49,675 nucleotides of DNA from Isosphaera sp. Lineage in GTDB: Bacteria; Planctomycetota; Planctomycetia; Gemmatales; Gemmataceae. This document shows positions 13,610 through 47,528 of this stretch, piece by piece. The translations under genes were made by a program, and so were the position numbers. The notes below the pieces were generated by a model. The model saw nothing but the letters and a program-made list of their open reading frames with translations. It ran no database searches and was not told where the DNA came from. The DNA is taken from NCBI GenBank assembly GCA_013822345.1, contig PNKH01000056.1:1-49675 (forward strand), read 5' to 3'. Every line of letters begins with the position of its first letter. Position 1 is the stretch's first letter.

Positions 13610-16030
13610 ATGGCAGAGGGCTGGCCCAAGAAGCGCCGCCTGCTCGGCACCAAGGTGAAGCGGCTCGACGGCCCGGACAAGGCCACCGGCCGGGCGAAGT
13701 ACAGCTACGACGTGAACCGCCCGGGCATGCTCCACGGGGTGATGCTCCGCTGCCCGCACGCCCACGCCAAGATCAAGAGCATCGACACCGCCGCCGCCCG
13801 GAAGACGCCCGGGTTCAAGGCCCTCGTCCTCGTCCTCCCGGCCAAGGACTGGATCGTGGTCAAGGCCGGGGGTGACGCGCTCGAACTCCGGAGCGTGCCG
13901 AACAAGAAGAAAAAGGAGAAGGAGGAGCAGCGGACGGTCAAGGTGACCCCGGGCGTCACCATCCTCCGCAAGAACAAGGTCGTCGCCGTCGCCGACCTGA
14001 AGCCGGACGACGTGGTGCAGGTCGAGGTGCCGGACGACGCGGTCGGCCGCGAGCTGTTCTTCGCCGGGGACGAGGTCGCCGCGGTCGCCGCCGACACCGA
14101 GGAGCACGCCGAGGACGCGCTGCGGGCCATCAAGGTCGAGTACGAGGTGCTCGACCACCTCGTCGTCGAAGAAGAGGTCATCAAGAACCCGAAGAAGAAG
14201 ACGACGCCCGGCGCGCTGGAGGGGAACTACGACACCACCATCAAGGACGCGACCAAGGGCGATGTCGAGGCCGGGTTCAAGGAGGCCGAGGCAACGGTGG
14301 AAGGCACCTACGGGGTGCCGGTCATCTCCCACCAGTGCCTCGAAACCCACGGCCTGGTCGCCGAGTGGGACGCGGACGGCGGGCTGACGGTCTGGGCGTC
14401 CACCCAGGCCACGGTCGCCACCGCCGCCGCCCTGGCCGGCCGGTTCGGGCTGCCGCCGGCGAAGGTGAAGTGCGTCACCCACTACATGGGCGGCGGGTTC
14501 GGGAGCAAGTTCGGGCCGGACGTGCAGGGGTTCGCGGCCGCCGACCTCGCCCGCCGGGCCGGCGCCCCGGTCAAGATCATGCTCGACCGGGAGGAGGAAA
14601 TCATCGCCGCCGGGAACCGGCCGAGCGCCACCGGGACGGTGAAGATCGGCGGGAAGAAGGACGGCACCATCACCGCGTTCGCGGTCGACTGCTACGGCTC
14701 CCCGGGGTACACCGGCGGGGCCACCATCAACCTGAACCTGATGCCGTACGTGTACGGGGACGCGGTCGCGAACATGGCGCGGTCGCACAAGGTCGTGTAC
14801 ACCAACGCCGGCGTCGCCCGGGCGATGCGCGCCCCCGGCCACCCGCAGAACTGCGTCCTCACCGAGTTCGCGGTGGACGACCTCGCGGCGAAGCTCGGGA
14901 TCGACCCGCTCGTCATCCGCCGCAAGAACCTCCCGCCGAACAACCCGAAGGCGGACAAGGTCTCGTGGGCCGGCCGGCGGCACGACATCTACACCGAGCA
15001 ACTCGACCTGGCGGTGAAGCTGTCCGGGTGGAACGAGAAGTGGCACCCGCCGGGGAAGGGGAAGCCCGGGGCCGTCCGGCACGGGATCGGGATGGCGCTG
15101 CACACCTGGGGCGGGTTCGCCTCCGGCAGCACCACCCCGAACGAGTGCAGTGTCTTCATCTCGAAGGACGGCACCCCGACCGCCGAGACCTCGACCCAGG
15201 ACCTCGGCACCGCCCAGCGGACGGTCACCGCGATCGTCGTCGCCGAGGTTCTCGGGTTGATGCCGACCGACGTGCTGGTGAAGCTCGGCGAGAGCGTCTA
15301 CGGGTTCTCCAGCGGCTCCGGCGGGAGCACCACCTGCCCGTCGCAGGCGCCGGCGGCGCTGCTCGCGGCCCAGGCGGCCCGGGACGACCTGTTCAAGAAG
15401 GTCGCGCCGAAGGTCGGGGCCGACCCGAAGGACCTGGCCGTCGAGGCCGGCAAGGTCGTGGACGCGAAGAACAAGAAGGAGTGGGGCTGGAAGGAGTTCT
15501 GCGGCCGGCTCGGGATGGACGAGGCGAAGGGCCGGGGCGAGTGGAGCCTGGCCATCTCGAACGAGCCGGAGAACGCGAACATCTCCAGCGGGCAGGTCGG
15601 CGGGGTGCAGACCGCCGAGGTGCTGGTGGACAGCGAGACCGGGGTGGTCCGGGTCACCCACATGGTGGCCGTCCAGGACTGCGGGCTGGTGGTGAACAAG
15701 TTGGCGTGCGAGTCGCAGGTCGCCGGCGGGGTCATCATGGGGCTGAACTACGCCCTGTTCGAGGAGAACATCTTCGACAAGCACACCGGCCGGCAGGTGA
15801 ACCCGGACATGGAGTTCTACAAGCTCGGCGGGCTGCGCGACATGCCGAAGATCACGGTCCACATGCAGGACATGCCGGAGCGCGGGGTGATCGGGATCGG
15901 CGAGCCGCCGACCATCTCGACCGCGGCCGCGATCGGGAACGCGGTGTTCAACGCCCTCGGGGTGCGGGTCCCGTTCCTGCCGCTGTCGCCCCGGCGGGTC
16001 CTCGACGCCCTGGCGAAGGGGGGTAAGTAG
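13610..16030 (+). CDS. Xanthine dehydrogenase-family molybdopterin-binding subunit
   Basis: 806-residue large subunit. The N-terminal Ald_Xan_dh_C domain starts with RLDGPDKATGRAKYSYDVN, and the molybdopterin domains show YMGGGFGSKFG, QCLETHGLVAEW and ARAMRAPGHPQN. Near the C-terminus GVIGIGEPP carries the catalytic glutamate. Substrate cannot be told from sequence. The N-terminal domain has an unusual Lys/Glu-rich insertion (about residues 85-142, including NKKKKEKEEQR and DLKPDDVVQVEVPDD) between GFKALVLV and ELFFAGDEVAAVAA, where relatives are shorter. Starts 3 nt after the Fe-S subunit gene and is followed by the FAD subunit gene 2 nt later. Confidence 0.93.
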   Translation: MAEGWPKKRRLLGTKVKRLDGPDKATGRAKYSYDVNRPGMLHGVMLRCPHAHAKIKSIDTAAARKTPGFKALVLVLPAKDWIVVKAGGDALELRSVPNKKKKEKEEQRTVKVTPGVTILRKNKVVAVADLKPDDVVQVEVPDDAVGRELFFAGDEVAAVAADTEEHAEDALRAIKVEYEVLDHLVVEEEVIKNPKKKTTPGALEGNYDTTIKDATKGDVEAGFKEAEATVEGTYGVPVISHQCLETHGLVAEWDADGGLTVWASTQATVATAAALAGRFGLPPAKVKCVTHYMGGGFGSKFGPDVQGFAAADLARRAGAPVKIMLDREEEIIAAGNRPSATGTVKIGGKKDGTITAFAVDCYGSPGYTGGATINLNLMPYVYGDAVANMARSHKVVYTNAGVARAMRAPGHPQNCVLTEFAVDDLAAKLGIDPLVIRRKNLPPNNPKADKVSWAGRRHDIYTEQLDLAVKLSGWNEKWHPPGKGKPGAVRHGIGMALHTWGGFASGSTTPNECSVFISKDGTPTAETSTQDLGTAQRTVTAIVVAEVLGLMPTDVLVKLGESVYGFSSGSGGSTTCPSQAPAALLAAQAARDDLFKKVAPKVGADPKDLAVEAGKVVDAKNKKEWGWKEFCGRLGMDEAKGRGEWSLAISNEPENANISSGQVGGVQTAEVLVDSETGVVRVTHMVAVQDCGLVVNKLACESQVAGGVIMGLNYALFEENIFDKHTGRQVNPDMEFYKLGGLRDMPKITVHMQDMPERGVIGIGEPPTISTAAAIGNAVFNALGVRVPFLPLSPRRVLDALAKGGK

Positions 16031-16032
16031 CG

Positions 16033-17031
16033 ATGAAGAACTTCACCTACCACCGGCCGGCCACGGTCGCCGCCGCCCTCCCGCTGCTCGACGCGGAGTG
16101 GGGCAAGACCGAGCTGCTGGCCGGCGGGACCGACCTGCTCGACCGGCAGAAGGAGTACGTCTCCCAGCCGGACAAGGTGGTGAGCCTGACCGGGATCGGC
16201 GGGGCGTTCAAGCAGATCGCCGCCGCCGGGGACGCCGTCACCATCGGGGCCGGGGTCAAGCTCGCCGACATCGCCGAGAGCAAGGAGTTGGCGGCATTCC
16301 CCGCGCTCACCGGGGCGGCGGGCGAGATCGCCGGGCCGCAGATCCGGAACATGGGCACCCTCGGCGGGAGCCTGTGCCAGCGGAACCGGTGCTGGTACTT
16401 CCGCGACGAGCACGTCCCCTGCCTGCTCAAGGGCGGGAAGAAGTGCTTCGCCCTGGACGGCGAGAACGAGTACCACGCGGTCTTCACGCAGGGCCACCCG
16501 TGCGTGATCGTCCACCCGTCGACCCTCGCCCCGCCGCTGATCGCGCTCGGGGCGACGGCCGAGGTGGTCGGGCCGAAGGGGACGCGGACCGTCCCGCTTG
16601 AGAAGCTGTTCCAGGCGCCCGCGAAGGAGACGCAGCGGGAACACACGCTGGCCCCGAACGAGGTGCTGGTGGCGGTCAAGATCCCGGCCAAGGAGCCGCC
16701 CCGGAACGCCAGCTACGAGGTGAAGCAGCGGGAGACGAGCGAGTGGCCGCTGGTGCAGGCGGCGGTCGCGTTCCGGCCGTTCGTCAAGGTGGCCCGGGAC
16801 GTGCGGGTGGTGCTCGGCCACGTCGCCCCGACGCCGCTGGTGAGCGAGGCGGCGGCGAAGGCGCTGGAGGGGAAGGAAGTGACGGACGCGACCGCGACGG
16901 CCGCCGGCGAGGCGGCGGCCGCGGGGGCGAAGCCGCTGAGCGGGAACGGGTACAAGGTGGCGTTGGTGAAGACGGTGGTGAAGCGGGCGGCGCTGCTCGC
17001 CGCCGGGGCCAGGCCGTACTGGGAGGGCTGA
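16033..17031 (+). CDS. FAD-binding subunit of the xanthine dehydrogenase-family enzyme
   Basis: 332-residue medium subunit. FAD-binding motifs LLAGGTDLLDRQ and the second-loop MGTLGGSLCQRN are clear, then a CO dehydrogenase flavoprotein C-terminal domain. After GGSL there is a Cys-containing insertion: NRCWYF, VPCLLKGG, KKCFALDGENEY and, further on, HPCVIV. In 4-hydroxybenzoyl-CoA reductase HcrB four cysteines in an insertion at this place bind an extra [4Fe-4S] cluster; the four here could do the same, which is inference. Completes the S-L-M subunit set. Confidence 0.92.
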   Translation: MKNFTYHRPATVAAALPLLDAEWGKTELLAGGTDLLDRQKEYVSQPDKVVSLTGIGGAFKQIAAAGDAVTIGAGVKLADIAESKELAAFPALTGAAGEIAGPQIRNMGTLGGSLCQRNRCWYFRDEHVPCLLKGGKKCFALDGENEYHAVFTQGHPCVIVHPSTLAPPLIALGATAEVVGPKGTRTVPLEKLFQAPAKETQREHTLAPNEVLVAVKIPAKEPPRNASYEVKQRETSEWPLVQAAVAFRPFVKVARDVRVVLGHVAPTPLVSEAAAKALEGKEVTDATATAAGEAAAAGAKPLSGNGYKVALVKTVVKRAALLAAGARPYWEG

Positions 17032-25228: not shown

Positions 25229-26508
25229 CGCTCGATCGGTTCCGCGACCTGGCCGCCGAACTCGACCGGAGCGACCCGCTCGCGGGGTACCGGGAGCGAT
25301 TCCACGTCCCGCGCGCGGCCGACGGCGGCGAGGCCGCTTACCTGTGCGGCAACTCGCTCGGGCTGGCGCCGCGCACCGCCCGCGAGGCCGTGGACCGCGA
25401 ACTGCGCGCGTGGCAGGAACTGGGCGTCGAGGGTCACTTCAAGAATGAGCGGCCGTGGGTCTCGTTCCACGAGTTGTTGACCGACCACCTGTGCCGCGTC
25501 GTCGGCGCGCGGCCGAACGAGGTGGTGGCGATGAACACGCTCACGGTGAACCTCCACCTCATGCTGGCGAGCTTCTACCGCCCCGAGCCGCGGCGGTTCC
25601 GGGTGCTGGTGGGGCACGCCGCGTTCCCGTCGGACCGCTACGCGCTCCGCTCGCAGATCGCCCTGCGCGGCCACTCGCCCGACGACGCCCTCCTCGTCGC
25701 CGCCCCCCGCCCGGGCGAGGCCACCCTCCGCACCGACGACCTGGTCGGGCTGATCGAGCGGCACCGCGACGAGCTGGCACTCGTGCTGATGGACGGCGTC
25801 AACTACTACACGGGCGAGTTCGTCGACATCCCGGCGGTCACCGCCGCCGCGCACCGGCACGGGGTCGTCGCCGGGTTCGACCTGGCCCACGCGGCCGGGA
25901 ACGTGCCGCTCGCCCTGCACGACTGGGGCGTCGATTGCGCCGTGTGGTGCTCCTACAAGTACCTCAACGGCGGGCCGGGGTGCGTGGCCGGGTGCTTCGT
26001 CCACGAGCGGCACGGCCTGCGCGCCGACCCGGTCCCGCGACTGGCCGGCTGGTGGGGGCACGACAAGGCGACGCGGTTCGCGATGGGACCGGACTTCGTG
26101 CCGATCCCCGGGGCCGAGGGGTGGCAGTTGAGCAACCCGCCGCTGTTCTCGTTGGCGGCACTCCTGGCCTCGCTCGAACTGTTCTCCGAGGCGGGAATGG
26201 ACCGCCTCCGGGCCAAGAGCGAGGCGCTGACGGGCTTTCTGGACCGGGGGCTGCGCGAACTCTTCCCGGGGTCGGTGGACGTGCTCACGCCCGCTGACCC
26301 GGCGCGGCGCGGGTGTCAGTTGTCGGTCCGCGTGCGATGGGAGGCCCGGAAGACGCACGCCGCGCTGCTGGCGCGGGGCGTCGTCTGCGACTGGCGCGAG
26401 CCGGACGTGATCCGCCTGGCGCCGGTGCCGTTCTACAACCGGTTCGCGGACGTCATGCGGTGTCTGGACGTGTTCGACCAACACCACCGGGGGTCTGGCG
26501 ATGGCTGA
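25225..26508 (+). CDS. kynU: Kynureninase
   Basis: 427-residue PLP enzyme of the aminotransferase class V fold. YLCGNSLGLAPR (residues 39-50) is the substrate-binding opening; Asp219 in GFDLAHAAGN and the PLP-binding Lys245 in CSYKYLNGGPG are present; GWWGHDKATRFAM follows. It cleaves kynurenine or 3-hydroxykynurenine to anthranilate or 3-hydroxyanthranilate; with KMO and 3-HAO alongside the second is meant. Start overlaps the formamidase stop and the stop overlaps the KMO start by 8 nt. Confidence 0.95.
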   Translation: MTLDRFRDLAAELDRSDPLAGYRERFHVPRAADGGEAAYLCGNSLGLAPRTAREAVDRELRAWQELGVEGHFKNERPWVSFHELLTDHLCRVVGARPNEVVAMNTLTVNLHLMLASFYRPEPRRFRVLVGHAAFPSDRYALRSQIALRGHSPDDALLVAAPRPGEATLRTDDLVGLIERHRDELALVLMDGVNYYTGEFVDIPAVTAAAHRHGVVAGFDLAHAAGNVPLALHDWGVDCAVWCSYKYLNGGPGCVAGCFVHERHGLRADPVPRLAGWWGHDKATRFAMGPDFVPIPGAEGWQLSNPPLFSLAALLASLELFSEAGMDRLRAKSEALTGFLDRGLRELFPGSVDVLTPADPARRGCQLSVRVRWEARKTHAALLARGVVCDWREPDVIRLAPVPFYNRFADVMRCLDVFDQHHRGSGDG

Positions 26509-27838
26509 GGTGACCCTGGTCGGCGGTGGTCTGTCCGGGGCGCTGCTGGCGCTGATGCTGGCCCGGAAGGGCGTGCGGGTCACCGTGTACGAGCGCCGCG
26601 CCGACGTCCGGTCCGACCGGTTCGAGGAGGGCCGGTCGATCAACCTCGCGCTCTCGGCCCGCGGGATCCACGCCCTCCGGCTCGTCGGCCTCGACGAGGA
26701 CGTGCTGGCGCGGGCGATCCCGATGCGCGGCCGGTCCATCCACCCGGTCGCCGGGACCGGCTCGCTCATCCCGTACGGGCGGAAGCCCGACGAGGTGATC
26801 CACTCCGTCAGCCGGCGCGGCCTCAACGCCCAACTCCTCGACGCCCTGGCGCGCGAGACGGGCGTCGCGGTCCACTTCCAGCACCGCTGCACCGGCTACA
26901 ACCTCCGCACCCGCACCCTCACCCTCCGGGACGAGGCGGCCGGCCGGGATTTCACCGTCGACTCCCCGGTCGTCATCGGCACCGACGGGGCGGCGTCGGC
27001 GGTGCGGGCGGCGCTGATGCAGGCGACGCGGATGAACTACTCCCAGGAGTACCTGGAGCACGGGTACAAGGAGCTGACCATCCCGCCCGCGGCCGACGGC
27101 TCGTTCCGCCTGGACCAGAACGCCCTGCACGTCTGGCCGCGCGGCGGGTTCATGATGATCGCGCTGCCGAACCCGGACCGGACGTTCACCTGCACCCTCT
27201 TCCTCCGTCACCACGGCACCCCGGGCTTCGACCAGCTCGCTACGCCGCGGGACGTGGCCGAGTTCTTCGGCTCCACGTTCCCCGATGCCGTCCCACTGCT
27301 CCCGGAGCTGGCGGACGAATTCTTCCGCAACCCGACCGGCGGGCTGGTGACGGTGCGCTGCGCCCCGTGGCACCACGGCGGCCAGGTCCTGCTGCTGGGC
27401 GACGCGGCGCACGCCATCGTCCCGTTCTTCGGCCAGGGGATGAACTGCGCGTTCGAGGACTGCGAGGTACTCCTCGGGCTGTTCGACGCGTGCGGCGGCC
27501 GGTGGGAGGAGATCGGCCCCCGCTTCTTCGCGGAACGGAAACCGAACGCGGACGCAATCGCGCAGCTGGCCCTGGACAACTTCGTCGAGATGCGCGACAC
27601 CTCGGCCGACCCGCACTTCGCCGTGAAGCGCCAGTTGGAGCACCGGCTCGAGGAGCGCTACCCGGGACAGTTCTTCTCGAAGTACGCGATGGTGTCGTTC
27701 CACCGCGTCCCCTACCGCGAGGCCCTGGAGCGCGGGAGGGTGCAGGACCGGATCCTGATGGAGGTGTGCTCGCGCGTCACCTCGCTCGCGGAGGTCGACG
27801 TGGACGCGACGTTCGCCCGGCTCCGGGCCGCGTCGTGA
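26501..27838 (+). CDS. kmo: Kynurenine 3-monooxygenase
   Basis: 445-residue FAD-dependent hydroxylase. N-terminal dinucleotide fold VTLVGGGLSGALLALMLARK, then GRSINLALSARG, and the KMO-type FAD/substrate motif GDAAHAIVPFFGQGMN at about residue 298. C-terminal residues are typical of the soluble core, without the long membrane helices of mitochondrial KMO. Hydroxylates kynurenine at C3 using NADPH and O2. Last pathway gene of the operon; the next gene is 37 nt away and unrelated. Confidence 0.95.
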   Translation: MAEVTLVGGGLSGALLALMLARKGVRVTVYERRADVRSDRFEEGRSINLALSARGIHALRLVGLDEDVLARAIPMRGRSIHPVAGTGSLIPYGRKPDEVIHSVSRRGLNAQLLDALARETGVAVHFQHRCTGYNLRTRTLTLRDEAAGRDFTVDSPVVIGTDGAASAVRAALMQATRMNYSQEYLEHGYKELTIPPAADGSFRLDQNALHVWPRGGFMMIALPNPDRTFTCTLFLRHHGTPGFDQLATPRDVAEFFGSTFPDAVPLLPELADEFFRNPTGGLVTVRCAPWHHGGQVLLLGDAAHAIVPFFGQGMNCAFEDCEVLLGLFDACGGRWEEIGPRFFAERKPNADAIAQLALDNFVEMRDTSADPHFAVKRQLEHRLEERYPGQFFSKYAMVSFHRVPYREALERGRVQDRILMEVCSRVTSLAEVDVDATFARLRAAS

Positions 27839-35404: not shown

Positions 35405-36316
35405 TCACCCGCCCGACACGCCGTCGCCGAGCAGCCGGTGCAGGTGGAGGTGGAACGGGCCGAGCTTGCCGCCGTAGTTCCCGGCGGTGACCCGCACCAC
35501 CCCCGGCCGGCACGCGGCCCGCACCCCGACCCGCGTCGCCTCCTCCACCGCCGCCAGGTCGAGGCCGTCGAACACCACCTCGTAGACCGCGTTCGCCTGG
35601 GCCGGCAGCGCCGACTCGACCAGCCCGCGGAGGGTCGGGCAGTACGCGTCGTTGGTGCTCGCCTTCAGCCCCTTGTACTTGCTCCCGACCTTACTCCCGC
35701 TCCGCACCACCCCGCCGGGAAACGGTGTGATCACCCCCGGCACCCGGCGGACCGCCGCCACCGCCGCCTCCGTCGCCGCCAGCGCCGCCGCCTGGGTCTC
35801 CCCGAGCACCAGGAAGTTCCCGCCGGCCACCCCCTTCACCGTCCCGAACACGTCCTCGCACAGGAACTCCCCGTCCATCGTCGGCATCCGCCAGTACCGC
35901 CGGCCGGCGAGCAGCTTGCTGATCTGCCACCCGTCCCCGAAGTACCGCAGGTTCCCGCCGACCTTGATGGTCTTCCCCGGGTCGCCGGCCAGGCCGTTGT
36001 AGCAGGCGGTGGTGGCGCACGTCAGGACGCACTGGGCGACCCGGTTCGCGACCGCCTTCTGGAGGGCGTCCCGGCTGAACGCGAAGAACAGCAGCGCCAC
36101 CCCCGGCCGGCCGTCGGGCGTCTCGTCCGCGGTGAGTTCGCGCTCGATGCCGGCCTCGGCGTCGCACCCGATGACGGACGAGGCGTACCCGGTCGCGGTC
36201 TGGCCGGCGGTCCGGGCCCAGCCGGCCGTCTCGGCGGTGACCACCACCCGGGCGGCAGTCATCGGGAACGCCTCGGCGAACGTGTCCTCGACCGGGACGG
36301 AGTTGACGGTGAGCAC
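35405..36316 (-). CDS. ftr: Formylmethanofuran:tetrahydromethanopterin formyltransferase
   Basis: 303 residues from GTG 36316; family members begin just like this (NSVPVEDTFAEAFPMTAARV), which fixes the start although the nearest GGAG is about 11 nt away. Further landmarks are CATTACYNGL, KTIKVGGNLRYFGDGWQ, FPGGVVRSGSKVGSKYKGLKA and the C-terminal GNYGGKLGPFHLHLH. The enzyme transfers the formyl group between methanofuran and tetrahydromethanopterin in C1 metabolism. It is divergent from the formylmethanofuran dehydrogenase genes at 36557-41090, with which it forms one functional cluster. Confidence 0.94.
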   Translation of the reverse strand: MLTVNSVPVEDTFAEAFPMTAARVVVTAETAGWARTAGQTATGYASSVIGCDAEAGIERELTADETPDGRPGVALLFFAFSRDALQKAVANRVAQCVLTCATTACYNGLAGDPGKTIKVGGNLRYFGDGWQISKLLAGRRYWRMPTMDGEFLCEDVFGTVKGVAGGNFLVLGETQAAALAATEAAVAAVRRVPGVITPFPGGVVRSGSKVGSKYKGLKASTNDAYCPTLRGLVESALPAQANAVYEVVFDGLDLAAVEEATRVGVRAACRPGVVRVTAGNYGGKLGPFHLHLHRLLGDGVSGG

Positions 36317-36384
36317 GGCGGGGCGGTCTCCGGACGGGGGTGTGGTAACCCGAGGGACGTGTCGGTCACCGGGGTGGGTCGGCA

Positions 36385-36556: not shown

Positions 36557-36892
36557 ATGGCGGGCGCCCGGTTCCTCCTGATCCCCGGCCGGACGAGCAA
36601 GCAGGGCCAGCAGATCAACGTCGGCAAGGACCACGCCGCGTACCAGGCGATCGTGTCCACGCTGACGATGCACGCCGACGACATGAAGGAACTGGGGGTA
36701 TCGGCCGGGGCGTCGGTGCGGGTGCGGAACGAGACCGGCGAGGCGACGTTCGTGTGCCAGCCGGGGAACGTCCCGCGGGGGCTACTGTTCGTGCCGTACG
36801 GCCCGCCGACCTGCCGGCTGATGGGCGGGGAGACCGACGGCACCGGGATGCCGACGTCGAAGGGCTGGGACGTGGAGGTCGAGCCCGCGTAG
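36557..36892 (+). CDS. Formylmethanofuran dehydrogenase subunit D-like (molybdopterin dinucleotide-binding domain)
   Basis: 111 residues that correspond to the C-terminal pterin-binding domain of molybdopterin oxidoreductases as a separate protein, as in archaeal FwdD/FmdD: LIPGRTSKQGQQINVGKDH, SAGASVRVRNETGE, GNVPRGLLFVPYGPPTCRLM and GETDGTGMPTSKGWDVEV. It supplies the part of the cofactor pocket missing from the B subunit. GGAG at about 8 nt precedes ATG 36557. First gene of the plus-strand operon. Confidence 0.88.
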   Translation: MAGARFLLIPGRTSKQGQQINVGKDHAAYQAIVSTLTMHADDMKELGVSAGASVRVRNETGEATFVCQPGNVPRGLLFVPYGPPTCRLMGGETDGTGMPTSKGWDVEVEPA

Positions 36893-37240: not shown

Positions 37241-38554
37241 ATGAACCTGACGGTTGTGAAGAACGCGACCTGCACGTTCTGCGGGTGCGTGTGCGACGAC
37301 ATCGAGTTGCACGCCGACGGCGAGCGGATCACCGAGACGAAAGGCGCCTGCATCCTCGGCCAGGCGTGGTTCAAGAACCACACCGCCGAGCGCCTCTACC
37401 CGGACGCCCTGATCGACGGCCGCGAGGCGACGGTCGATGAGGCGGTCGAGGCCGCCGCCGAGTTCCTCCACGCCGCCGACATGCCGCTCGTGTACGGGCT
37501 GAGCAACGTCACCTGCGAGGCCCAGCGGCAGGCGGTGTACCTCGCCGAGCTGATCGGCGGCGTCATCGACAGCCACACGTCGCTTTGACACGGCCCCACC
37601 GAGATCGCCGCTCAGTTGAGCGGTAAGGTGTCCTGTACGCTGGGCGAAGTGAAAAATCGCGCCGACCTCATCATCTACTGGGGCGGGAACCCGGCCGAGT
37701 GCCACCCGCGGCACTTCACGAAGTACACCATCATGCAGAAGGGGAAGTACGTCCCCAACGGCCGCAAGGGCCGGACGATGGTGCTGGTGGACATCCGCGA
37801 GACGCCGAGCGCCAAGGCCGCCGACCTGTTCCTCCAGGTCCGCCCGGCGAAGGACTTCGAGACCCTCACCATCCTCCGGGCGCTCATCAAGGGTCGGCGG
37901 GTGGACGCCGCCGCGGTGGCCGAGACGGGGCTGACGCTGGAGCAGTTGGAAGACCTGGCCCACCGGATGAAGACGTGCCGGTTCGGGGTGCTGTTCTTCG
38001 GCATGGGCCTGTCGATGACGCGCGGCAAGCACATGAACTCGGCGGCCGCGCTGACGCTGGCGGCGGAGCTGAACGCGTTCACCAAGTTCGTGACGATGCC
38101 GATGCGCGGGCACGGGAACGTGACCGGGGCGGACGTGGTGATGCGGTACACGACCGCGTACCCGTTCGGGGTGAGCCTGAGCCGCGGCTACCCGCGGTTC
38201 AACCCGGGCGAGTTCTCGACGATCGACTTGTTGGTCCGCGGCGACGTGGACGCGACGCTGGTGCTCGGGGCGGACCCCGGGGCGACGATGCCGCAGCCGG
38301 CGATCGACCACCTGGCCCGGACGCCGACGATCGTGCTCGACCCGAAGGTGACGCACAGCAGCCGGCTGGCGCGGGTGCACATCACGACGGCGGCGACCGG
38401 GATCACGGCGCCGGGGACGGTGTACCGGATGGACGAGGTGCCGCTGCCGCTGCGGCCGCCGCTGTCCGGGCCGTACCCGAGTGACGAGGACGTGCTCAAG
38501 CGGATCGTCGCGGCGGTGAAGCGGAAGCCGGCCTGGGAGCCGGCCGGGGTGTGA
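37241..38554 (+). CDS. Formylmethanofuran dehydrogenase subunit B, selenocysteine-containing
   Basis: Read as one 437-residue protein across an in-frame TGA at 37586-37588 (codon 116). Before it lie the [4Fe-4S] motif CTFCGCVCDD...GACILGQAWF and LVYGLSNVTCEAQRQ; the sequence around the TGA is IDSHTSL-U-HGPTEIAAQL. In archaeal FwdB/FmdB the residue before HGP is the Cys or Sec that binds Mo or W, so the TGA falls exactly at the catalytic ligand. After it the same frame continues with full homology: TCTLGEVKNRADLIIYWGGN, PAECHPRHF, RGHGNVTGADVVMRYTTAYP and LGADPGATMPQ. ATG 37241 has GGAG at 6 nt. Without recoding it would be two ORFs (37241-37588 and the rest), neither functional. Confidence 0.9.
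37586..37632 (+). promoter_or_regulatory. Bacterial SECIS-like element just after the Sec TGA
   Basis: Immediately downstream of TGA 37586-37588 the mRNA can form an apical hairpin CCGCTC-AGTT-GAGCGG (37608-37623), with a possible lower stem CACC (37597-37600)/GGTG (37627-37630), or alternatively GACAC (37587-37591)/GTGTC (37628-37632). The apical loop begins 25 nt after the TGA and has G as its second base; both agree with the published bacterial SECIS description (loop about 16-37 nt downstream, G within the first two loop positions). Binding by SelB is inferred. Confidence 0.7.
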
Positions 38555-38566
38555 GGTGGAGCCGGC

Positions 38567-40195
38567 ATGCTTCGGATCACCGGCGGCAAGGTGTACGACC
38601 CGGCGAACAACATCAACGGCGAGGTCCGTGATGTGTGTATCTCCGGCGGGCGGGTCGTGGCCGCCGTAGAAGACGCGCGGACCATCGACGCGACCGGCAT
38701 GGTCGTGTTCCCCGGCGGGGTGGATGTCCACACGCACGTCGCCGGGGCGGCCCTCAACTTCGCCCGCGGGCTGATCCCCGAGCAGCACCGCCAGGCCGCC
38801 CCGATCATCCACTCGCGGCTCCGCCGGGCCGGCCTCGGCGGCAGCACCCCGACCACCTTCGCCACCGGCTACCTGTACGCCGGCATGGGCTGGACGACCG
38901 TCAACGAAGCGGCCGTCCCGATCCTGTCGGCGAAGCACACCCACGAGGAACTGCACGACACGCCGATCGTCGACAAGACGTGTTGCGTCCTGATGGCGAA
39001 CAACGAGATCCTGTTGGACCTGATGGAGGCCGGGGAGTGGGAGCGGGCCCGGCACGTGATGGCGTGGCAGGTGTGGGCGGCGAAGGCGTACGGGGTGAAG
39101 GCGGTGAACCCCGGCGGGGTGGCGGCGTGGAAGTGGGGCAAGGACGCCAAGCAGTTGTCCGACCCGATCGCCGGGTACAGCAACATCACCCCCGGCCAGA
39201 TCGTCGCCGGCCTCGCCCGCCTCGTGGACGAGTTGAAGTTGCCGCACCCGCTGCACCTCCACTGCAACAACCTCGGCGCCCCCGGAAACGTCACCACCAC
39301 GCTCGAGACGATGAAGACGCTGGAGGGGAACCGGGCGCACCTGGCCCACCTCCAGTATCACGCTTATGGCGGAGACGACTGGAGCAACATCAGTTCCGCA
39401 TCAACGACACTCGCCGACGCCTTCAACGCCTGCCCCAACCTCACGACCGACGCCGGGGCCGTGCTGTTCGGCAACACCGTCACCGTCACCGCCGACGGCC
39501 CGTGGCAGCACCTCCTGTACCAGCTCACCGGCAAGAAGTGGGCGAACCTCGACGTCGAGAACGAGACGGGGTGCGGGGTCGTCCCGTACGCCTACAAGCC
39601 GGGCAGCCCGGCGAACGCCGTGCAGTGGGCGGTCGGCCTGGAGTTGCTGCTGCTCATCACCGACCCGTGGCGGGTCTTCCTCACCACCGACCACCCGAAC
39701 GGGGCCGCGTTCTGGCGGTACCCCGAGGTGATCCGGCTGCTCATGGACCTCGACTTCCGCCGCGAGCAGTTGAAGGCGATCCCGGACAAGGTGCTGAAGC
39801 GGATCATCCTCCCCGAACTGACCAGGCAGTACACGCTGTCCGAGATCGCGGTCATCACGTCGGCCGGGCCGGCCCGGGCGCTCGGACTCTCACACAAAGG
39901 CCATCTCGGGGTCGGCGCCGACGCCGACGTGGCGGTGTACAACGAGAGCGCCGACGTGGCACACATGTTCTCGTACCCGCGGTACGTCATCAAGGGCGGC
40001 GAGGTGGTGATCGAGGAGGGCGAGCTGCGGAACGTGGTCGAGGGCCGCGGGTTCGTGGTCAAGCCCGCCTACGACGAGACGGTCGAGGGCTACCTGCGGC
40101 CGCTGTTCCAGCAGCACTACACGATGTCGTTCGACAACTACCCCGTCGCCCCGGAGCGCGTCCACGGGCTGCAGGTGGTCGAGCCCGCGCCCTGA
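38567..40195 (+). CDS. fhcA: Formylmethanofuran dehydrogenase subunit A (amidohydrolase subunit)
   Basis: 542 residues of the FwdA/FhcA type, a dihydroorotase-like amidohydrolase that forms or hydrolyses N-formylmethanofuran. Metal ligands His55 and His57 in GVDVHTHVAGAALNFARG; further blocks are AYGVKAVNPGGVAAWKWG, LHLHCNNLGAPGN, ENETGCGVVPYAYKPGS and LTTDHPNGAAFWRYPEVI. Length is normal for the family. Starts 12 nt after the B subunit stop. Confidence 0.94.
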   Translation: MLRITGGKVYDPANNINGEVRDVCISGGRVVAAVEDARTIDATGMVVFPGGVDVHTHVAGAALNFARGLIPEQHRQAAPIIHSRLRRAGLGGSTPTTFATGYLYAGMGWTTVNEAAVPILSAKHTHEELHDTPIVDKTCCVLMANNEILLDLMEAGEWERARHVMAWQVWAAKAYGVKAVNPGGVAAWKWGKDAKQLSDPIAGYSNITPGQIVAGLARLVDELKLPHPLHLHCNNLGAPGNVTTTLETMKTLEGNRAHLAHLQYHAYGGDDWSNISSASTTLADAFNACPNLTTDAGAVLFGNTVTVTADGPWQHLLYQLTGKKWANLDVENETGCGVVPYAYKPGSPANAVQWAVGLELLLLITDPWRVFLTTDHPNGAAFWRYPEVIRLLMDLDFRREQLKAIPDKVLKRIILPELTRQYTLSEIAVITSAGPARALGLSHKGHLGVGADADVAVYNESADVAHMFSYPRYVIKGGEVVIEEGELRNVVEGRGFVVKPAYDETVEGYLRPLFQQHYTMSFDNYPVAPERVHGLQVVEPAP

Positions 40196-40280: not shown

Positions 40281-41090
40281 ATGCTCACCCTCACCCTGAA
40301 GGAATCGCCGCACGTCCCGCTGGAGGCGGAGGTCATCTCTCCGGATGTCGTGGCGAACCTCACCCCCGGCGAGGTCCGTGCGCTGCCCGTGCTGCTCGGC
40401 AAGCGGCGGTGCCGGCTCGACGACTGGTTCGACGTGGACGGGGACGCCGGGGACGAGATCGAGGTGCGCGGGGACGCGTCGAAGGTGAAGTGGATCGGCC
40501 GCGGCATGACCCGCGGGCGGGTCACCGTCGTCGGGAACGCCGGGACGCACCTCGGGGCGTACATGACCGGCGGGTCGGTCGAGGTGACCGGGAGTGCCGG
40601 GGACTGGGTCGGCGGCGAGATGGGGGGCGGGACGATCCGGGTCCGCGGAGACGCCGGCGGGCAGCTCGGGGCGGCGTACCGCGGCAGCCCGTCCGGGATG
40701 AGCGGCGGGACGATCCTGGTCGGCGGGTCGGCCGGGATCGAGCTCGGGATGCGGATGAAGCGCGGGCTGATCGCCGTCGGCGGGAAGGTGCGGGACTTCG
40801 CCGGGCTGCAGATGAAGGGCGGGACGATCGTCCTGACGGGCGGGGCCGAGATCCGCACCGGGGCGTGGATGGCCCGCGGCACCATCGTCTCGCTCGTGCC
40901 GCTGCGGCTCCTGCCGACGTTCGCGGCCGCCGGCCCGTACCACCCGACGTTCCTCCGGCTGTACGCCCGCCACCTCCGGCCGCTCGGGTTCGCCCTGCCG
41001 TGCGAGCCGCACGAGGGCGCCTACCGCCGGTACACCGGCGATGCCGCCGTCCCCGGCAAGGGCGAGGTGCTCGTCTGGCAGCCGGCGTGA
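40281..41090 (+). CDS. fhcC: Formylmethanofuran dehydrogenase subunit C
   Basis: 269 residues. Most of the protein is the GXXGXXXG-type repeat beta-helix shared by FwdC and the C-terminal domain of glutamate synthase: GNAGTHLGAYMTGGSVEV, GSAGDWVGGEMGGGTIRV, GDAGGQLGAAYRGS, GGSAGIELGMRMKRGLIAV and GGAEIRTGAWMARGTIVSL. In the archaeal complex this subunit is structural and anchors the others. The stop is 12 nt from the convergent phosphoesterase gene. Confidence 0.92.
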   Translation: MLTLTLKESPHVPLEAEVISPDVVANLTPGEVRALPVLLGKRRCRLDDWFDVDGDAGDEIEVRGDASKVKWIGRGMTRGRVTVVGNAGTHLGAYMTGGSVEVTGSAGDWVGGEMGGGTIRVRGDAGGQLGAAYRGSPSGMSGGTILVGGSAGIELGMRMKRGLIAVGGKVRDFAGLQMKGGTIVLTGGAEIRTGAWMARGTIVSLVPLRLLPTFAAAGPYHPTFLRLYARHLRPLGFALPCEPHEGAYRRYTGDAAVPGKGEVLVWQPA

Positions 41091-42161: not shown

Positions 42162-42228
42162 TGTCCCGCCGGGTGGTAGTTGCGGTGAATGGGCGACGCC
42201 GCAGCAGCCTCCGGCGGGACATTTTTTT
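42162..42228 (+). terminator. Intrinsic terminator or small leader RNA before mcrB
   Basis: TGTCCCGCCGG (42162-42172) pairs perfectly with 42211-42221 and is followed by seven T residues (42222-42228): a classic intrinsic terminator with a 38-nt inner segment that can fold further. No plus-strand gene ends here. Because a promoter lies right upstream, most transcripts would be about 65-nt RNAs. It could be an attenuator for the mcrBC-like operon or a small non-coding RNA; function is inferred. Confidence 0.6.
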
Positions 42229-42366
42229 CTACCTCCTCCCGCGGGGCCACTTCGCAACGTCTCTTCCTACCCACCTTTTCGACTCGATTCACCCAGACTT
42301 TTTCCCCTCCGTCTGCTACCATCGGTCCGGTTGCGGCGCCCGCATCGGTCGTACCGGCACCGGCTC

Positions 42367-44943
42367 ATGGCGAAAACGTCTTTCGCGACACGGTCCCTGC
42401 CGCTCGGGCCGCTCCTCGCCGCGTTCCGACCGTCCGCCGCCGACCCGGCCGCACCACCCCCTGTCGAACTTCTCGACACCCCCGACGACCCCCTCGCCGC
42501 GGGACTCGAACGGTTCGCCGCCGCCTGGTTGCCGGTCGTCTTCCACCCGGGCGTCTTCCGCCGCGAGGCCCGCTTCCTCCGCCACGCCCTCGCCCACCTG
42601 GTCCGCGGACACGACCCCCTCCCCGACCGCCTCGCCCGCTGCGTCACGCCCGGCGAGGTGTACCATGTGCCGGGACTCGGACAGGCGTTCTGGGCGGCCG
42701 CGGCCCACGCCGCCGACCCCGCCGCGGTGCCGATCTGGTCTCCGGCTGTCGAGCGCGGCCTGGCCGTCCTCGGGCTCCTCACCGCGAGCGCCGGGCGGGT
42801 CGCGGCCGTGCTCGACGGGTGCGCCGCGGTCCGCCGGGCGGCCCCCGACCTGACCCCCGCCCAGGTGTCCGAGTTCCTCGCCCGGGTGGCCCGGGTGACC
42901 GGCCGCGAGCTGCCGCCGGCGGACGCGCACCCGTTCGCGTTCGCCGCGACCCCGGACGACGTTCGCCGGGCGGTCCGCGAGGTCCGCACCCGCACCCCGC
43001 TGCGGACCCGGCTCCGCGAGGCGAGCCCGGACCTGGTCGCGGCGGTCGGCTGCTTCCGGGCCGCGGCCGACGCCGGCGACCACGAGGCCGCACTCGCCGC
43101 CTTGCGCGACGCGTTCCCCGACCCGGCGTGGGAACGGGCCCTGCCGTCCGTCGACGACGCGTGGTCCGCGTCCCTGCCGCCTGCCGACCAGGCCCGCCTC
43201 TGGTGCGAAGTGGCCTCGGTACTCCACGACACGTTCCGCGTCCACCCGCTCGAACTCGCCGACGTCGTGGTCGCGGCGGCCCAGCCGGCCGCCGCCCCGA
43301 CCCGCGACGGGTTCGGCGGGTTCTGCTCGGACACGTTCGCGTTCCTCGGCGAGTTGGCCGCCGCGAACAGCCGCGACTGGATGGCCGCCCGCCGCGACCG
43401 CTACCGGTTCGTCCTCCGCGAGCCGCTGGTCGAGCTGTGCGCCGCGGTCGCCGACCGGTACGTCCGCCCGGTGCTGAACCGCGAGCACGGGTGGGACCTG
43501 GAGTGCGACGCCCGGCCCGGCCGGGCCTTGACGAGCATCTGCAAGAACGACTTCGGCCGGGGCGGGCCGTACCAGCCGGTGCAGTGGGTGACGTTCTACC
43601 GCCGGAGCCGGGCGACGAAGCGGGCCGACGCCCAGTTCTTCGTCCGCGTCGCCCCGGACGGGGTGCGGTACGGGTTCCACCTCGGCCGCACCGCCCGCGA
43701 CGCCGGCCGGCAGTTCCGCCAGGCGGTGCAGGAGCACGCCGACGCCGTATTCCGTGCGTTGTCCCCCGGCCGGCTCCTCGGCGGCTGCCGGTTCTGGGCC
43801 GGCGACGAGTTGGAGGCCGAGGTGCCGGTGCGGTCGGCGGCCGACCTGCGGGCGTGGGCCGGGCACAAGACGGTCGCCGCCGGCGTCCACCGCCCGCCGT
43901 CCGACCCTGCGCTGCGCGGCGACGACCTCCCGGGCGAGGTGCTCCTCACCTTCGACCGCCTCCTGCCGCTGTTCGCCTGCGCCGCCGACGCCGACCCGCT
44001 GCCGCTCCTCGCCCGCCGCGGCGGCGCCCCGGACGCCCCGCCGCCCTACGACCCGGCCGCGTTCCACGGCGAGACGTACCTGTCGGAGGTGTGGCTCGAC
44101 CGCGTTCTCGGGCTGCTCCGCATGAAGCGGCAGCTCGTGCTGCAGGGCGTACCCGGGACCGGCAAGACGCACGTCGCCCGCTGCCTGGCCCGGCTCCTCA
44201 CCCACGACCGACCGGACTGCGTTCGCCTCGTCCAGTTCCACCCGGCGTACAGCTACGAGGAGTTCGTCGAGGGGATCCGGGTGCGGAGCGTCGAGACGGC
44301 GGGGCGGACGGAGGTGGCGTACCCGGTCGAGCCGGGGGTGCTGTGCGCGTTCGCGGAGCAGGCCGCCGCCCGCCCGGCCGAGCCGCACGTCCTGATCGTC
44401 GACGAACTGAACCGCGGCAACCTCCCCCGCATCTTCGGCGAGTTGCTGTTCCTCCTGGAGTACCGCGACCAGGCGGTGACGCTGCCGTACTCGAAGCGGC
44501 CGTTCCGGCTTCCGGACAACCTGTACCTCCTGGCGACGATGAACGGGCTGGACCGGTCGGCGGGGGCGCTCGACCAGGCCCTGCGGCGGCGGTTCTCGTT
44601 CGTGGACATGCCGGCGGACGCGGCGGTGCTGGCGTCGTGGCTGGAGGAGCACCCGCCGGCGGAGCCGGGGGACGAGACGTTCGGGCCGCGGGTGGTGCGG
44701 GCGTTCGAGGAGCTGAACCGCCGGCTGGCCCGCGACCTCGGGGCGGACAAGCAGGTGGGGCACAGCTTCTTCATGGTGCCGGGGCTCGACGGGGCGAAGC
44801 TGACGGCGGTGTGGGACCACCACGTCCGGCCGCTCTTGCTCGACTACCTCGGCGGCCGGTCGGACCGGCTGCGGGAGTACACCCCGGACCGGCTGCTGGG
44901 GGAGCGGGTCGTGAAGCGGCCGAGGCCGGTGACCGGGTCCTGA
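42367..44943 (+). CDS. McrB-like AAA+ protein with a DUF2461-like domain
   Basis: 858 residues from ATG 42367 (a TTG at 42331 is possible; neither has a strong ribosome-binding site). Residues 1-310 are an Ala/Arg-rich helical region I do not recognise. About 314-465 resemble DUF2461 (FCSDTFAFLGELAAANSRDW, then RYRFVLREPLVEL, FYRRSRATKRADAQFFVR, GFHLGRTARDAG). The C-terminal part is an McrB-type AAA+ motor: Walker A LQGVPGTGKTHVAR (near 595), Walker B LIVDELNRGNLPRIFGELLF (near 676) with the McrB-signature NRGN, and sensor/arginine region LLATMNGLDRSAGALD...RRRF. McrB is a GTPase that translocates DNA and drives the McrC nuclease. Confidence 0.87.
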   Translation: MAKTSFATRSLPLGPLLAAFRPSAADPAAPPPVELLDTPDDPLAAGLERFAAAWLPVVFHPGVFRREARFLRHALAHLVRGHDPLPDRLARCVTPGEVYHVPGLGQAFWAAAAHAADPAAVPIWSPAVERGLAVLGLLTASAGRVAAVLDGCAAVRRAAPDLTPAQVSEFLARVARVTGRELPPADAHPFAFAATPDDVRRAVREVRTRTPLRTRLREASPDLVAAVGCFRAAADAGDHEAALAALRDAFPDPAWERALPSVDDAWSASLPPADQARLWCEVASVLHDTFRVHPLELADVVVAAAQPAAAPTRDGFGGFCSDTFAFLGELAAANSRDWMAARRDRYRFVLREPLVELCAAVADRYVRPVLNREHGWDLECDARPGRALTSICKNDFGRGGPYQPVQWVTFYRRSRATKRADAQFFVRVAPDGVRYGFHLGRTARDAGRQFRQAVQEHADAVFRALSPGRLLGGCRFWAGDELEAEVPVRSAADLRAWAGHKTVAAGVHRPPSDPALRGDDLPGEVLLTFDRLLPLFACAADADPLPLLARRGGAPDAPPPYDPAAFHGETYLSEVWLDRVLGLLRMKRQLVLQGVPGTGKTHVARCLARLLTHDRPDCVRLVQFHPAYSYEEFVEGIRVRSVETAGRTEVAYPVEPGVLCAFAEQAAARPAEPHVLIVDELNRGNLPRIFGELLFLLEYRDQAVTLPYSKRPFRLPDNLYLLATMNGLDRSAGALDQALRRRFSFVDMPADAAVLASWLEEHPPAEPGDETFGPRVVRAFEELNRRLARDLGADKQVGHSFFMVPGLDGAKLTAVWDHHVRPLLLDYLGGRSDRLREYTPDRLLGERVVKRPRPVTGS

Positions 44944-44955
44944 CGGGGTTCGCCC

Positions 44956-46353
44956 ATGCTGACGCGGCGGAAGAGCTGGCTCCGGCGGACGGCCGTCGCG
45001 GTCGTCGTCTCCCTCCTGGTGACGACCGTCTGGCTGGTCGGGAAGCGGGAGTGGCACCGGCGGGCGGGGAACCGCGACTACGCGGCGGCGGTGGCCGAAA
45101 CCGAGGCGACCGACCCGGCGTGGCGGTGGGACGACATCCGGGCGGCCCGCAAGGCGCTTCCTCCAGAGCGGAACAGTGCGACTGTAATCGCGGCGGTCGC
45201 CGACCTGGCCAGACTCCCGCCCGCCGGCAGGGAGGGGTCGCTGCCGGACACCCCGGAGACCCCTGCGAACGTCCGCCACCCCGCCGGCGTGGTCGCCGCC
45301 GCGCGGCAAGCGCTGGCGAAGCACCGCCCAGCCGTCGACCTCGCTATGACCGTCAAGGACTACCCGGTCGGGTCCACCACGGTCGAGCTGACCCCCGACA
45401 TCATCAGCACCAAGATCCCGCACGTCGACGCCGCCCGCCGTGCCCAGGAACTGCTGACGTGGGAGGCCGCCCTCGCCCTGGAGGACGCCGACTCCGGCCG
45501 GGCGGCGACGGCCGTCGCCGCCCTCATGAACACCTCCCGGTCGATCGGCGACGACCCGTTCCTGATCTGCCAGCTCTTCCGGATGAGCGCCCGGGTGACC
45601 GCGACGCGGGCGCTGGAACGGTTGCAGGCGCAGGCCGAGCCGACCGACCCGATGCTCGCCCCGCTCCAGGCCGCGTGGGCCGCCGACGCCGAGGAACCGC
45701 TGCTCCTCCTGGGCCTTCGCGGGGAGCGGGCGGTGACGGACGTGACCGTCGCGAACCTGGCGGACGGGACGGCCGCGGCCGGGCCGGAGGGGCAGCCTGG
45801 CGGGATGTTCGAGCGGTACGGGTCGTGGTTGTGGCGCGGCGGGCTGACCCGGGACCGGGCGTTCCTCCACCGCTACCTCACGCAGGCCGTCGCCGTCGCC
45901 CGCCTGCCGCCGCACGAGCAGCCGGCGGCGATCGCCGCCCTCCCCCCGACCCGCGACCCGGACATGCCGGTCGCCGGGCTGCTCGCCCCACCGGTCGAGA
46001 AGTGCGCGACCGCCTTCCGGCGGACGACCGCCGAGATGCGGTGCGCCGCGGCCGCCGTCGCCTGCGAGCGGTTCCGGATCAAGCACGGGCGGTGGCCGGA
46101 CGCACTCGCCGATCTGTGCCCCGCGTTCCTCGCCGCCGTCCCGCTCGACCCGTTCGACGGCGAGCCGCTGCGGTACACGAAGGTCGGGGACGGCGTCGTG
46201 GTCCACTCGGCCGCCCGGAGCGTGCTGCCACCGGCCCCGCCGCACCCCGGGCTGACCGACGGCGTGGAGATCGGGTTCCGGCTGTGGAACCCGGACGCCC
46301 GCCGCCGGCCCCCGCCACCCGACCCGCAGCCCGACGACGAGAAGCAGCCGTGA
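44956..46353 (+). CDS. Membrane-anchored protein of unknown function between mcrB and mcrC
   Basis: 465 residues. Basic N-terminus followed by one transmembrane segment (RRTAVAVVVSLLVTTVWLVG), then WRWDDIRAARKALPPERNSA, a helical middle (TWEAALALEDADSGRAATAVA) and a C-terminal FRIKHGRWPDALADLCPAFL...VPLDPFDGEPLRYTKVGDG block like those of planctomycete lineage-specific proteins. Pro-rich tail. No known domain recognised. It starts 12 nt after mcrB and its stop region overlaps the mcrC GTG by 4 nt, so it is embedded in the operon. Either a new component of the system or an unrelated gene captured by it. Confidence 0.85.
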   Translation: MLTRRKSWLRRTAVAVVVSLLVTTVWLVGKREWHRRAGNRDYAAAVAETEATDPAWRWDDIRAARKALPPERNSATVIAAVADLARLPPAGREGSLPDTPETPANVRHPAGVVAAARQALAKHRPAVDLAMTVKDYPVGSTTVELTPDIISTKIPHVDAARRAQELLTWEAALALEDADSGRAATAVAALMNTSRSIGDDPFLICQLFRMSARVTATRALERLQAQAEPTDPMLAPLQAAWAADAEEPLLLLGLRGERAVTDVTVANLADGTAAAGPEGQPGGMFERYGSWLWRGGLTRDRAFLHRYLTQAVAVARLPPHEQPAAIAALPPTRDPDMPVAGLLAPPVEKCATAFRRTTAEMRCAAAAVACERFRIKHGRWPDALADLCPAFLAAVPLDPFDGEPLRYTKVGDGVVVHSAARSVLPPAPPHPGLTDGVEIGFRLWNPDARRRPPPPDPQPDDEKQP

Positions 46354-47528
46354 CCCGGCCGGTGGTCCGGCTGGTCGAGCGCCGCACCCGGGAGGTCAGA
46401 CTCCCGGCGCGGGAGGTCGCGTTCCTGCTCGCCCACGCCCGCCACCTCGTCGATGTCGTCCCGGCGTTCCGCCGCGGCCGCTACCGCCTCACCCCGCGCG
46501 AGCACGTCGGGTGGTTCGACGGCCCGACCGTCCGGTACGCCGTCCGCCCGAAGCTGCCGTGGCCGAACGTCCGGATGCTCCTCGGCCTCGGCCCCGGCGA
46601 CCCGCTCGAAGCCGACCCCGGCACCGACCTGCTCGACCTGCTGGCCCGCGAGTTCGCCGACCGGCTGCGCGAGGTGGCGCGGGTCGGCCTGGTCTCGGGT
46701 TACCACGACCACGACACCGACGGCACCTTCCTCCGCGGCAAGCTCCGGCCGGCCGACCAGCTCCGCGACGCGGCCGCCCGCGCCTTCCCCGATCGCTTCT
46801 TCCTGACCGAATCCCTCCTCGACCTCGACACCCCGTGGAACCGCGTCGTCCGGGCGGCCGGCGACCGGCTGCTCGCCGCCCCGGGGCTCGCGGCCGCGGC
46901 CCGCGCCGCCGTCGCCGACGCCCTCGTCCAGCTCGGCGAGGTCACGGCCGCCGCCACCGACGCCGACCTCCCCGCCGCGGACGCCGAGCCGCGCGCCGCC
47001 CACTACCGGCCGCTTCTGGACGTGTGCCGGCTGCTCCGCGACGGGCTGTCGGCGGCCCGCCTGCCGGGCGGCGGCGGGGCATTCCTCGTCGACCTGTCGC
47101 GGGCGTTCGAGCGGTACCTGGCCGAGGCGCTGGCCGCGGCGTTCGCCGCCCGGCCGGGGTGGACGGTCGAAGCCCACCCGCGGTTCCCGGTCGGCCCGAC
47201 CGACCTCGTGCCGGACCTCCTGGTCCGCCGCCGCGGCGAACCGTGGGCGGTCCTCGACGCGAAGTGGAAGGCCGCCGGCCGCGGCCCGGACCCGGCCGAC
47301 CTGCACCAGGTCCTGGCGTACGCGGCCGTCACCGGGGCGCGGCACGTCGGGCTGGTGTACCCCGGCCGGCGGTCGGGCCGCCGCACCGACGCGGCCCCCG
47401 GCGGGGTAGCGGTGTCGCGGGTCCGGCTGCGGGTGGTCGGGACGGCGGCCGAGTGCGACCGTGCGGCGCGGGTGTTCGCCCGATTCGTCAGGTGTGCCGG
47501 GGGTGCCGGACCTGCGGGGTCGGCGTGA
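46350..47528 (+). CDS. mcrC: McrC-like restriction endonuclease subunit
   Basis: 392 residues from GTG 46350, overlapping the preceding gene by GTGA. The McrC N-terminal part includes VGWFDGPTVRYAVRPKLPW, then SGYHDHDTDGTFLRGKLRPA and LTESLLDLDTPWNRVV. The PD-(D/E)xK nuclease centre is intact: FERYLAEALAAAF, then TDLVPDLLVRRRGEPWAVLD and AKWK, giving the D...D-x-K pattern; LHQVLAYAAVTGARHVGLVY follows. In type IV systems McrC cuts modified DNA when bound to McrB. The presence of catalytic residues argues for an active system. Confidence 0.9.
   Translation: MTRPVVRLVERRTREVRLPAREVAFLLAHARHLVDVVPAFRRGRYRLTPREHVGWFDGPTVRYAVRPKLPWPNVRMLLGLGPGDPLEADPGTDLLDLLAREFADRLREVARVGLVSGYHDHDTDGTFLRGKLRPADQLRDAAARAFPDRFFLTESLLDLDTPWNRVVRAAGDRLLAAPGLAAAARAAVADALVQLGEVTAAATDADLPAADAEPRAAHYRPLLDVCRLLRDGLSAARLPGGGGAFLVDLSRAFERYLAEALAAAFAARPGWTVEAHPRFPVGPTDLVPDLLVRRRGEPWAVLDAKWKAAGRGPDPADLHQVLAYAAVTGARHVGLVYPGRRSGRRTDAAPGGVAVSRVRLRVVGTAAECDRAARVFARFVRCAGGAGPAGSA

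Follow-up and report, generated by a model that had tools for sequence, protein, structure and literature searches.

An in-frame TGA in a gene of Isosphaera sp. raises the question whether a planctomycete inserts selenocysteine (Sec) into the B subunit of a formylmethanofuran dehydrogenase-type complex. The gene lies in the window, as the whole stretch of 49,675 nucleotides that was analysed (contig PNKH01000056.1) is called here. Translation of the frame yields 437 residues, and the only stop inside it is the TGA at residue 116 (...SHTSL*HGPTEIA...), exactly as first described. We consider it very probable that fwdB encodes the B (catalytic) subunit of such a complex and is a selenoprotein, with Sec insertion and a mechanism as proposed below. 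Table 1 gives the coordinates of the features discussed.

Table 1. Features of the fwdB region, with positions in the window
Feature	Position	Strand	Basis
ftr/fhcD, formylmethanofuran:H4MPT formyltransferase, divergent from fwdD	35405..36325	-	TIGR03119, 444.8 bits
fwdD, molybdopterin-dinucleotide-binding subunit	36557..36892	+	PF01568, 41.9 bits (cut-off 26.8)
fwdB/fmdB, formylmethanofuran dehydrogenase catalytic subunit	37241..38554	+	TIGR03129, translation, stop check
TGA, predicted Sec codon, residue 116 = predicted Mo/W ligand	37586..37588	+	alignment, conservation
SECIS-like hairpin: stem 37607-37613 with 37618-37624, loop AGTT 37614-37617	37607..37624	+	begins 19 nt after TGA
fwdA, amidohydrolase subunit	38567..40195	+	TIGR03121, 683 bits (cut-off 393)
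fwdC, GXGXG subunit	40281..41090	+	TIGR03122, 259 bits (cut-off 131)

The fwdB frame and its neighbours in the window

If the TGA is translated as an amino acid, the product fits the FwdB profile TIGR03129 with 483 bits (cut-off 328), residues 8-425 corresponding to positions 1-420 of the 421 in the profile, while a Pfam search with the fwdB protein gave no match at E 0.001. The UHxP motif around the ligand position is common to the window FwdB and archaeal FwdB/FmdB and is listed for FwdB in the pertinent part of a review (PMC13188914). Gene callers that take TGA as a stop will split fwdB in the genomes carrying the TGA form.

The partner subunits A, C and D are all encoded next to fwdB. FwdD passes the Pfam cut-off and reaches 73.2 bits with the FwdD profile NF042908, below its curated cut-off of 175. 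For ftr, the profile match covers residues 128-414 of a longer open frame reaching 36673, and the start in Table 1 is the one we infer. No ferredoxin subunit FwdF/FwdG was recognised among the scanned subset of window frames.

Other parts of the window hold an open frame of 1779 aa (42189-47528) in which similarity to McrC is confined to a domain at the C-terminal end (residues 1480-1725); it may be a large fusion protein of restriction/defence. Molybdenum and FAD subunits resembling xanthine dehydrogenase/aldehyde oxidase are found at 13610-17031, with scores that do not reach the specific cut-offs set for the named families, and a VioC-like FAD monooxygenase, well under its curated cut-off, at 26501-27838.

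Conservation of the TGA and of a hairpin behind it

Among 59 genomes, 19 have exactly one TGA in the fwdB orthologue, namely the window's genome and 18 others whose proteins are 79-85% identical, and in 19/19 it occupies the identical codon; in one of them, G004, the match reaches only to residue 402. All 19 belong to the window's own family f1, which comprises 37 of the genomes. The search returned 30 loci with TGA (19), the Cys codons TGC/TGT (8), Gly (2) or Asn (1) at residue 116, and eight further paralogues carry Cys (4), Gly (3) or Thr (1). Pooled, these are 19 TGA, 12 Cys, 5 Gly, 1 Asn and 1 Thr, i.e. an in-frame UGA where homologues have Cys. The check first proposed, whether relatives have Cys in this column, thus gave Cys in 8 of the 11 non-TGA loci and 4 of the 8 paralogues.

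In a scan of named genomes all 80 loci kept have TGA at residue 116; they are the best-scoring 80 of 553 confirmed relatives, a selection that favours close relatives and gives no measure of how frequent Cys forms are, and some are contigs already present in the set of 59 genomes. The nearest named relatives among these best 80 of 553 are Gemmataceae; the titles of six records name Acidobacteria (4), Phycisphaeraceae (1) and Candidatus Kuenenia (1), though metagenome bins may carry wrong titles. Of 392 genomes drawn evenly from the phylum, 42 had a match at E 1e-60, and the TGA form was found in ten of these (the window's included) from six families, the codon being confirmed in 10/10. TGA-encoded FwdB thus recurs in several families of Planctomycetota and is not a single oddity.

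The gene order around the TGA loci was followed by tblastn with the window proteins (E 1e-8, best match only). For the best 80 of 553, a FwdD-like match lies upstream on the same strand in 74, and FwdA and FwdC lie downstream on the same strand in 63 and 57, respectively; FwdA is found upstream instead in two. Ftr lies upstream in 30 (16 on the same strand, 14 on the opposite one). In five of the six loci lacking FwdD, fwdB lies within 600 bases of the locus start, so that contig ends probably account for most of these misses; the sixth, L143, has 5 kb upstream of fwdB with no FwdD match. The distance from the fwdB start to the best FwdA match varies from 1.3 to 3.4 kb, so that in some relatives (L070, L091, L093 and others) fwdB and fwdA seem to be separated by an additional 1-2 kb, partial matches being another possible cause.

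The 108 TGA loci reduce to 92 distinct sequences, all with the same TGA and with no other stop upstream of it in the stretch taken. These data bear on the trivial explanation that fwdB is a pseudogene whose TGA arose by nonsense mutation or through an assembly error. The genome of the window (7.47 Mb, 95% complete) is a draft of 226 contigs, which leaves room for such an error. Against it stand the recurrence of the TGA in 92 distinct sequences, the query match continuing beyond the TGA to residue 402-437 in the best 80 of 553 loci, and constraint on the codons after the TGA past the amino-acid level, as described below. We regard a pseudogene as extremely unlikely, in keeping with the original argument that a random nonsense mutation would hardly hit this very codon.

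We take 5t5i and 8rja to be archaeal FwdB/FmdB structures. In the structure alignment residue 116 falls on Cys118 of 5t5i and on an X of 9sfi_Q, which we read as a modified or Sec residue. The proposal that the TGA marks the archaeal-type Cys-or-Sec ligand of Mo/W agrees with this alignment and with PMC11656701, where, in the section concerned, the metal-ligating Cys of the B subunit is said to be replaceable by Sec, recognisable by an internal stop codon.

Behind the TGA a hairpin pairs G19-C25 with G30-U36 (counted in nt after the TGA) around the loop AGUU, and RNAalifold on the 92 distinct sequences returned the same seven stem pairs. All seven are present in 78 of 87 distinct Sec-form contexts and six in the other nine; the outermost pair is broken in 7/87 rows. 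By comparison, the 20 Cys forms retain 2-6 of these pairs and the 19 Gly, Thr or other forms 0-5. The mean minimum free energy of nt 16-39 is -13.5 kcal/mol for the 87 Sec contexts, versus -3.7 for the 20 Cys and -5.2 for the 19 other forms. Standard pairs fill 98.5% of 609 cells, versus 29-57% after the partner has been shifted by 1-3 columns.

Covariation is weak, since the stem varies mostly on one side of a pair (G-C vs G-U): the 87 distinct rows contain one double-sided change, and 39/500 shuffles score as well. That change is the window's own, U-A for the usual C-G, together with Ser at residue 127 where the others have Gly. The single-sequence fold around the TGA is ordinary (z -0.77; 41/200 shuffles fold as well), and an Rfam scan of the window gave no match. 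The argument therefore draws on frozen codons and on the comparison with Cys and Gly forms. Codons 125 (CAG) and 126 (TTG), which encode the loop and the closing pair, are each identical in 92/92 sequences and are the two most conserved of 215 testable columns; TTG accounts for 712 of the 3432 Leu codons in these genes. Mean codon conservation is 0.50 for the testable columns in 122-129 (n=7) versus 0.08 for the other 208 (p 0.005), a range that was picked after the hairpin had been seen and in which codons 127-129 alone are unremarkable. According to PMC1088965, in the part that describes it, the bacterial SECIS lies immediately after the UGA and has a small apical loop containing G. The hairpin lies just downstream of the UGA and has a G in its small loop, and so fits this description.

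Sec decoding, proposed function and a second FwdB

The Sec-decoding genes on which the original prediction depended are all present, on four separate contigs of the window's genome: selA (553.7 bits, contig C2), selB (365 bits, contig C152; the winged-helix domain also matched), selD (384 bits, contig C92) and tRNA-SeC (selC) with anticodon tca (UCA), found by ARAGORN on contig C15. SelB was searched with PF09107 and TIGR00475; RF01852 was left out of the counts across genomes because its scan also catches tRNA-Ser. Over the 19 genomes with TGA-fwdB, selB exceeds the cut-off in 17, the remaining two being 65% and 75% complete. selA likewise does so in 17, with only a fragment in G018 and no match in G034, a genome that is 95% complete. 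As selB also exceeds the cut-off in 22 of 40 relatives without TGA-fwdB, co-occurrence of the two genes alone is not diagnostic, and selB presumably serves further proteins besides FwdB. A formate dehydrogenase search of the window's genome gave nine matches, of which only the window fwdB has an internal stop. The best match (G000:C20, 19531-21560; L174, L177) is a molybdopterin oxidoreductase whose split between two frames suggests a frameshift or an assembly error; by motif it looks like a Cys-type enzyme resembling assimilatory nitrate reductase.

The decoding genes also argue against the reading that the TGA has been reassigned, or is read through as another amino acid such as Trp or Cys, without Sec machinery. 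One TGA per gene would suffice for this. The complete set of tRNA-Sec and SelA/B/D, and the placement of the TGA in the Cys/Sec metal-ligand column, speak against it, as does the fact that TGA terminates 11 of the 13 window genes examined for this, hand-picked from those with family matches; fwdB itself is among the 11 (38552-38554). We rate such readthrough as very unlikely. Sec insertion at residue 116, as originally predicted, is supported by the conserved TGA, the decoding genes, the Cys relatives and the conserved hairpin.

In the mechanism that we propose, the ribosome would meet the UGA at codon 116, and the hairpin 19-36 nt downstream would recruit SelB and Sec-tRNA-Sec (UCA), which would insert Sec instead of allowing termination. 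Sec116 would then coordinate the Mo or W of a bis-pterin cofactor that FwdD would also hold, and the complex would interconvert CO2 and a formyl group on a methanofuran-like carrier. FwdA would carry out the formyl-carrier chemistry and Ftr would transfer the formyl group to or from H4MPT. Here we infer the actual insertion of Sec, the identity of the metal, the carrier and the electron partner. Oxidation of C1 units is our guess for the direction; mch is also present in the genome (contig C78).

A redox function was weighed against the reading that FwdB is a scaffold of the FhcB type, in which residue 116 would be unimportant. FhcB belongs to a formyltransferase/hydrolase complex and, according to a table in PMC10100899, has no Mo/W cofactor, and forms with Gly, Ala or Ser exist in planctomycete relatives. 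The window FwdB does not show this loss of the ligand residue, since it has TGA/Sec in place of Gly, Ala or Ser. Judged by alignment, it also has the active-site His and the four N-terminal Cys that are presumed to be Fe-S ligands and are kept in 76/76 rows of the tree described below. His291 is the counterpart in the alignment of M. wolfei His290, which PMC11656701 places around the metal in the relevant passage. It is kept in 39/39 Sec rows, 13/17 Cys rows and 1/2 Thr rows and missing from all 11 Gly rows. Together with the FwdD neighbour, these residues make a scaffold role for the window FwdB highly improbable.

The genome of the window contains a second fwdB, of the Gly form, on contig C12 adjoining gatB and ABC-transporter genes, and a second FwdA (750 bits) on contig C4; relatives of the window's FwdC and Ftr were not found in 12 kb around this FwdA or in 19 kb around the Gly-form fwdB. 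On account of the residues and the table in PMC10100899, we read the genome as holding two putative systems, a Sec-dependent dehydrogenase and, probably, a hydrolytic set of the Fhc type in which the B subunit would be a scaffold. Sec and Gly forms in one genome would offer a natural comparison of a redox complex with a probable scaffold. In another genome (G029), a fwdB of the Cys-type group on its contig C12 (L037) has Asn at the ligand position, Tyr next to it and Pro for His291, and is apparently an inactivated copy.

Evolution and comparison with known systems

A quick tree of 76 rows places the 39 Sec rows on one side of a branch (SH-aLRT 89). The tree is unrooted, has SH-aLRT support only and contains no archaeal rows. 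Its rows come from 130 after removal of those with fewer than 380 residues or at least 88% identity to a kept row; L011-L028 (18 of the 19 TGA loci of the 59-genome set) and a hand-made list of duplicates (L054-L058, L061-L064, L067, L071, L097, L145, L180, L181) had been left out before this filtering. Beside the Sec rows stand one Cys copy and two Thr copies, all on long branches whose joining is unsure. Two of these three, the Cys copy (in L050) and one Thr copy (in L095), adjoin a Sec gene in tandem. In L050 (2011-4764; same contig as L081) the Sec form is followed by the Cys form. In L095 (3547-6302) and L098 (3619-6302) a Thr form directly precedes the Sec form, the Thr copy of L098 being absent from the tree. 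It is possible that the tandem Cys and Thr copies are selenium-independent backups or non-catalytic copies.

The order of events is unsure because of the quick tree, the long branches and the lack of archaeal rows; the topology would fit a lineage that gained Sec once and acquired the tandem copies later. Tentatively, and without calling it the probable course, we suggest that a single ancestral planctomycete gained Sec together with a new bacterial-type SECIS in the coding region of an Archaea-derived family. The same site would then be served by two decoding signals, whether Sec was gained or kept, and tandem Cys and Thr copies, maybe selenium-independent backups, would have followed. The family is said to come from Archaea (PMC10100899, in the part concerned). 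For the enzyme superfamily as a whole, Sec has been argued to be the ancestral ligand (PMC7331816, likewise), so that it may have been kept, which counts against a gain.

FwdB was taken from the outset to be an established archaeal selenoprotein, and it is indeed listed as an experimentally verified family in two reviews of prokaryotic selenoproteins (PMC13188914, PMC9312934); the word planctomycete is absent from the main text of both. The window FwdB resembles archaeal FwdB/FmdB in its full-length homology, in the Cys/Sec metal-ligand column and in its partners FwdA, FwdC and FwdD. Its hairpin, by contrast, closely follows the UGA within the coding sequence, as in bacteria, whereas archaeal SECIS elements are mostly located in UTRs according to the passage on them in PMC9312934. 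FhcB, which works with FhcA and FhcD (PMC10100899, table), is a related B subunit; unlike FhcB, for which that table gives no Mo/W-bisPGD, the window FwdB has retained both the ligand position and the His of the active site.

A Sec-encoded FmdB was reported in 2016 for the planctomycete P2 (Rhodopirellula) from Porphyra (PMC4807772), and Sec-FwdB in planctomycetes was therefore already known. As described in the relevant sections of that paper, P2 shares with the window's genome the Sec-encoded FmdB, the order fmdD-fmdB-fmdA-fmdC, the complete set of genes for Sec insertion and the occurrence of fmdB in more than one form; unlike the Rhodopirellula P2, the window has Gemmataceae as its nearest named relatives. 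The same paper mentions Gly-containing homologues in three other planctomycetes, including Gemmata obscuriglobus, whereas here one Gemmataceae-like genome carries both the Sec and the Gly form. The spread over families, an analysis of the SECIS and the coexistence of Sec and Gly forms were not found in the parts of the literature consulted. What is added here is this breadth, the conserved SECIS, the Gly paralogue in the same genome and the tandem Cys and Thr copies in relatives. The Sec form of FwdB/FmdB in Methanopyrus kandleri is cited in PMC4807772 and PMC9312934, and the tandem pair of Sec and Cys forms recalls the selenium-regulated pair of that archaeon to which PMC4807772 refers.
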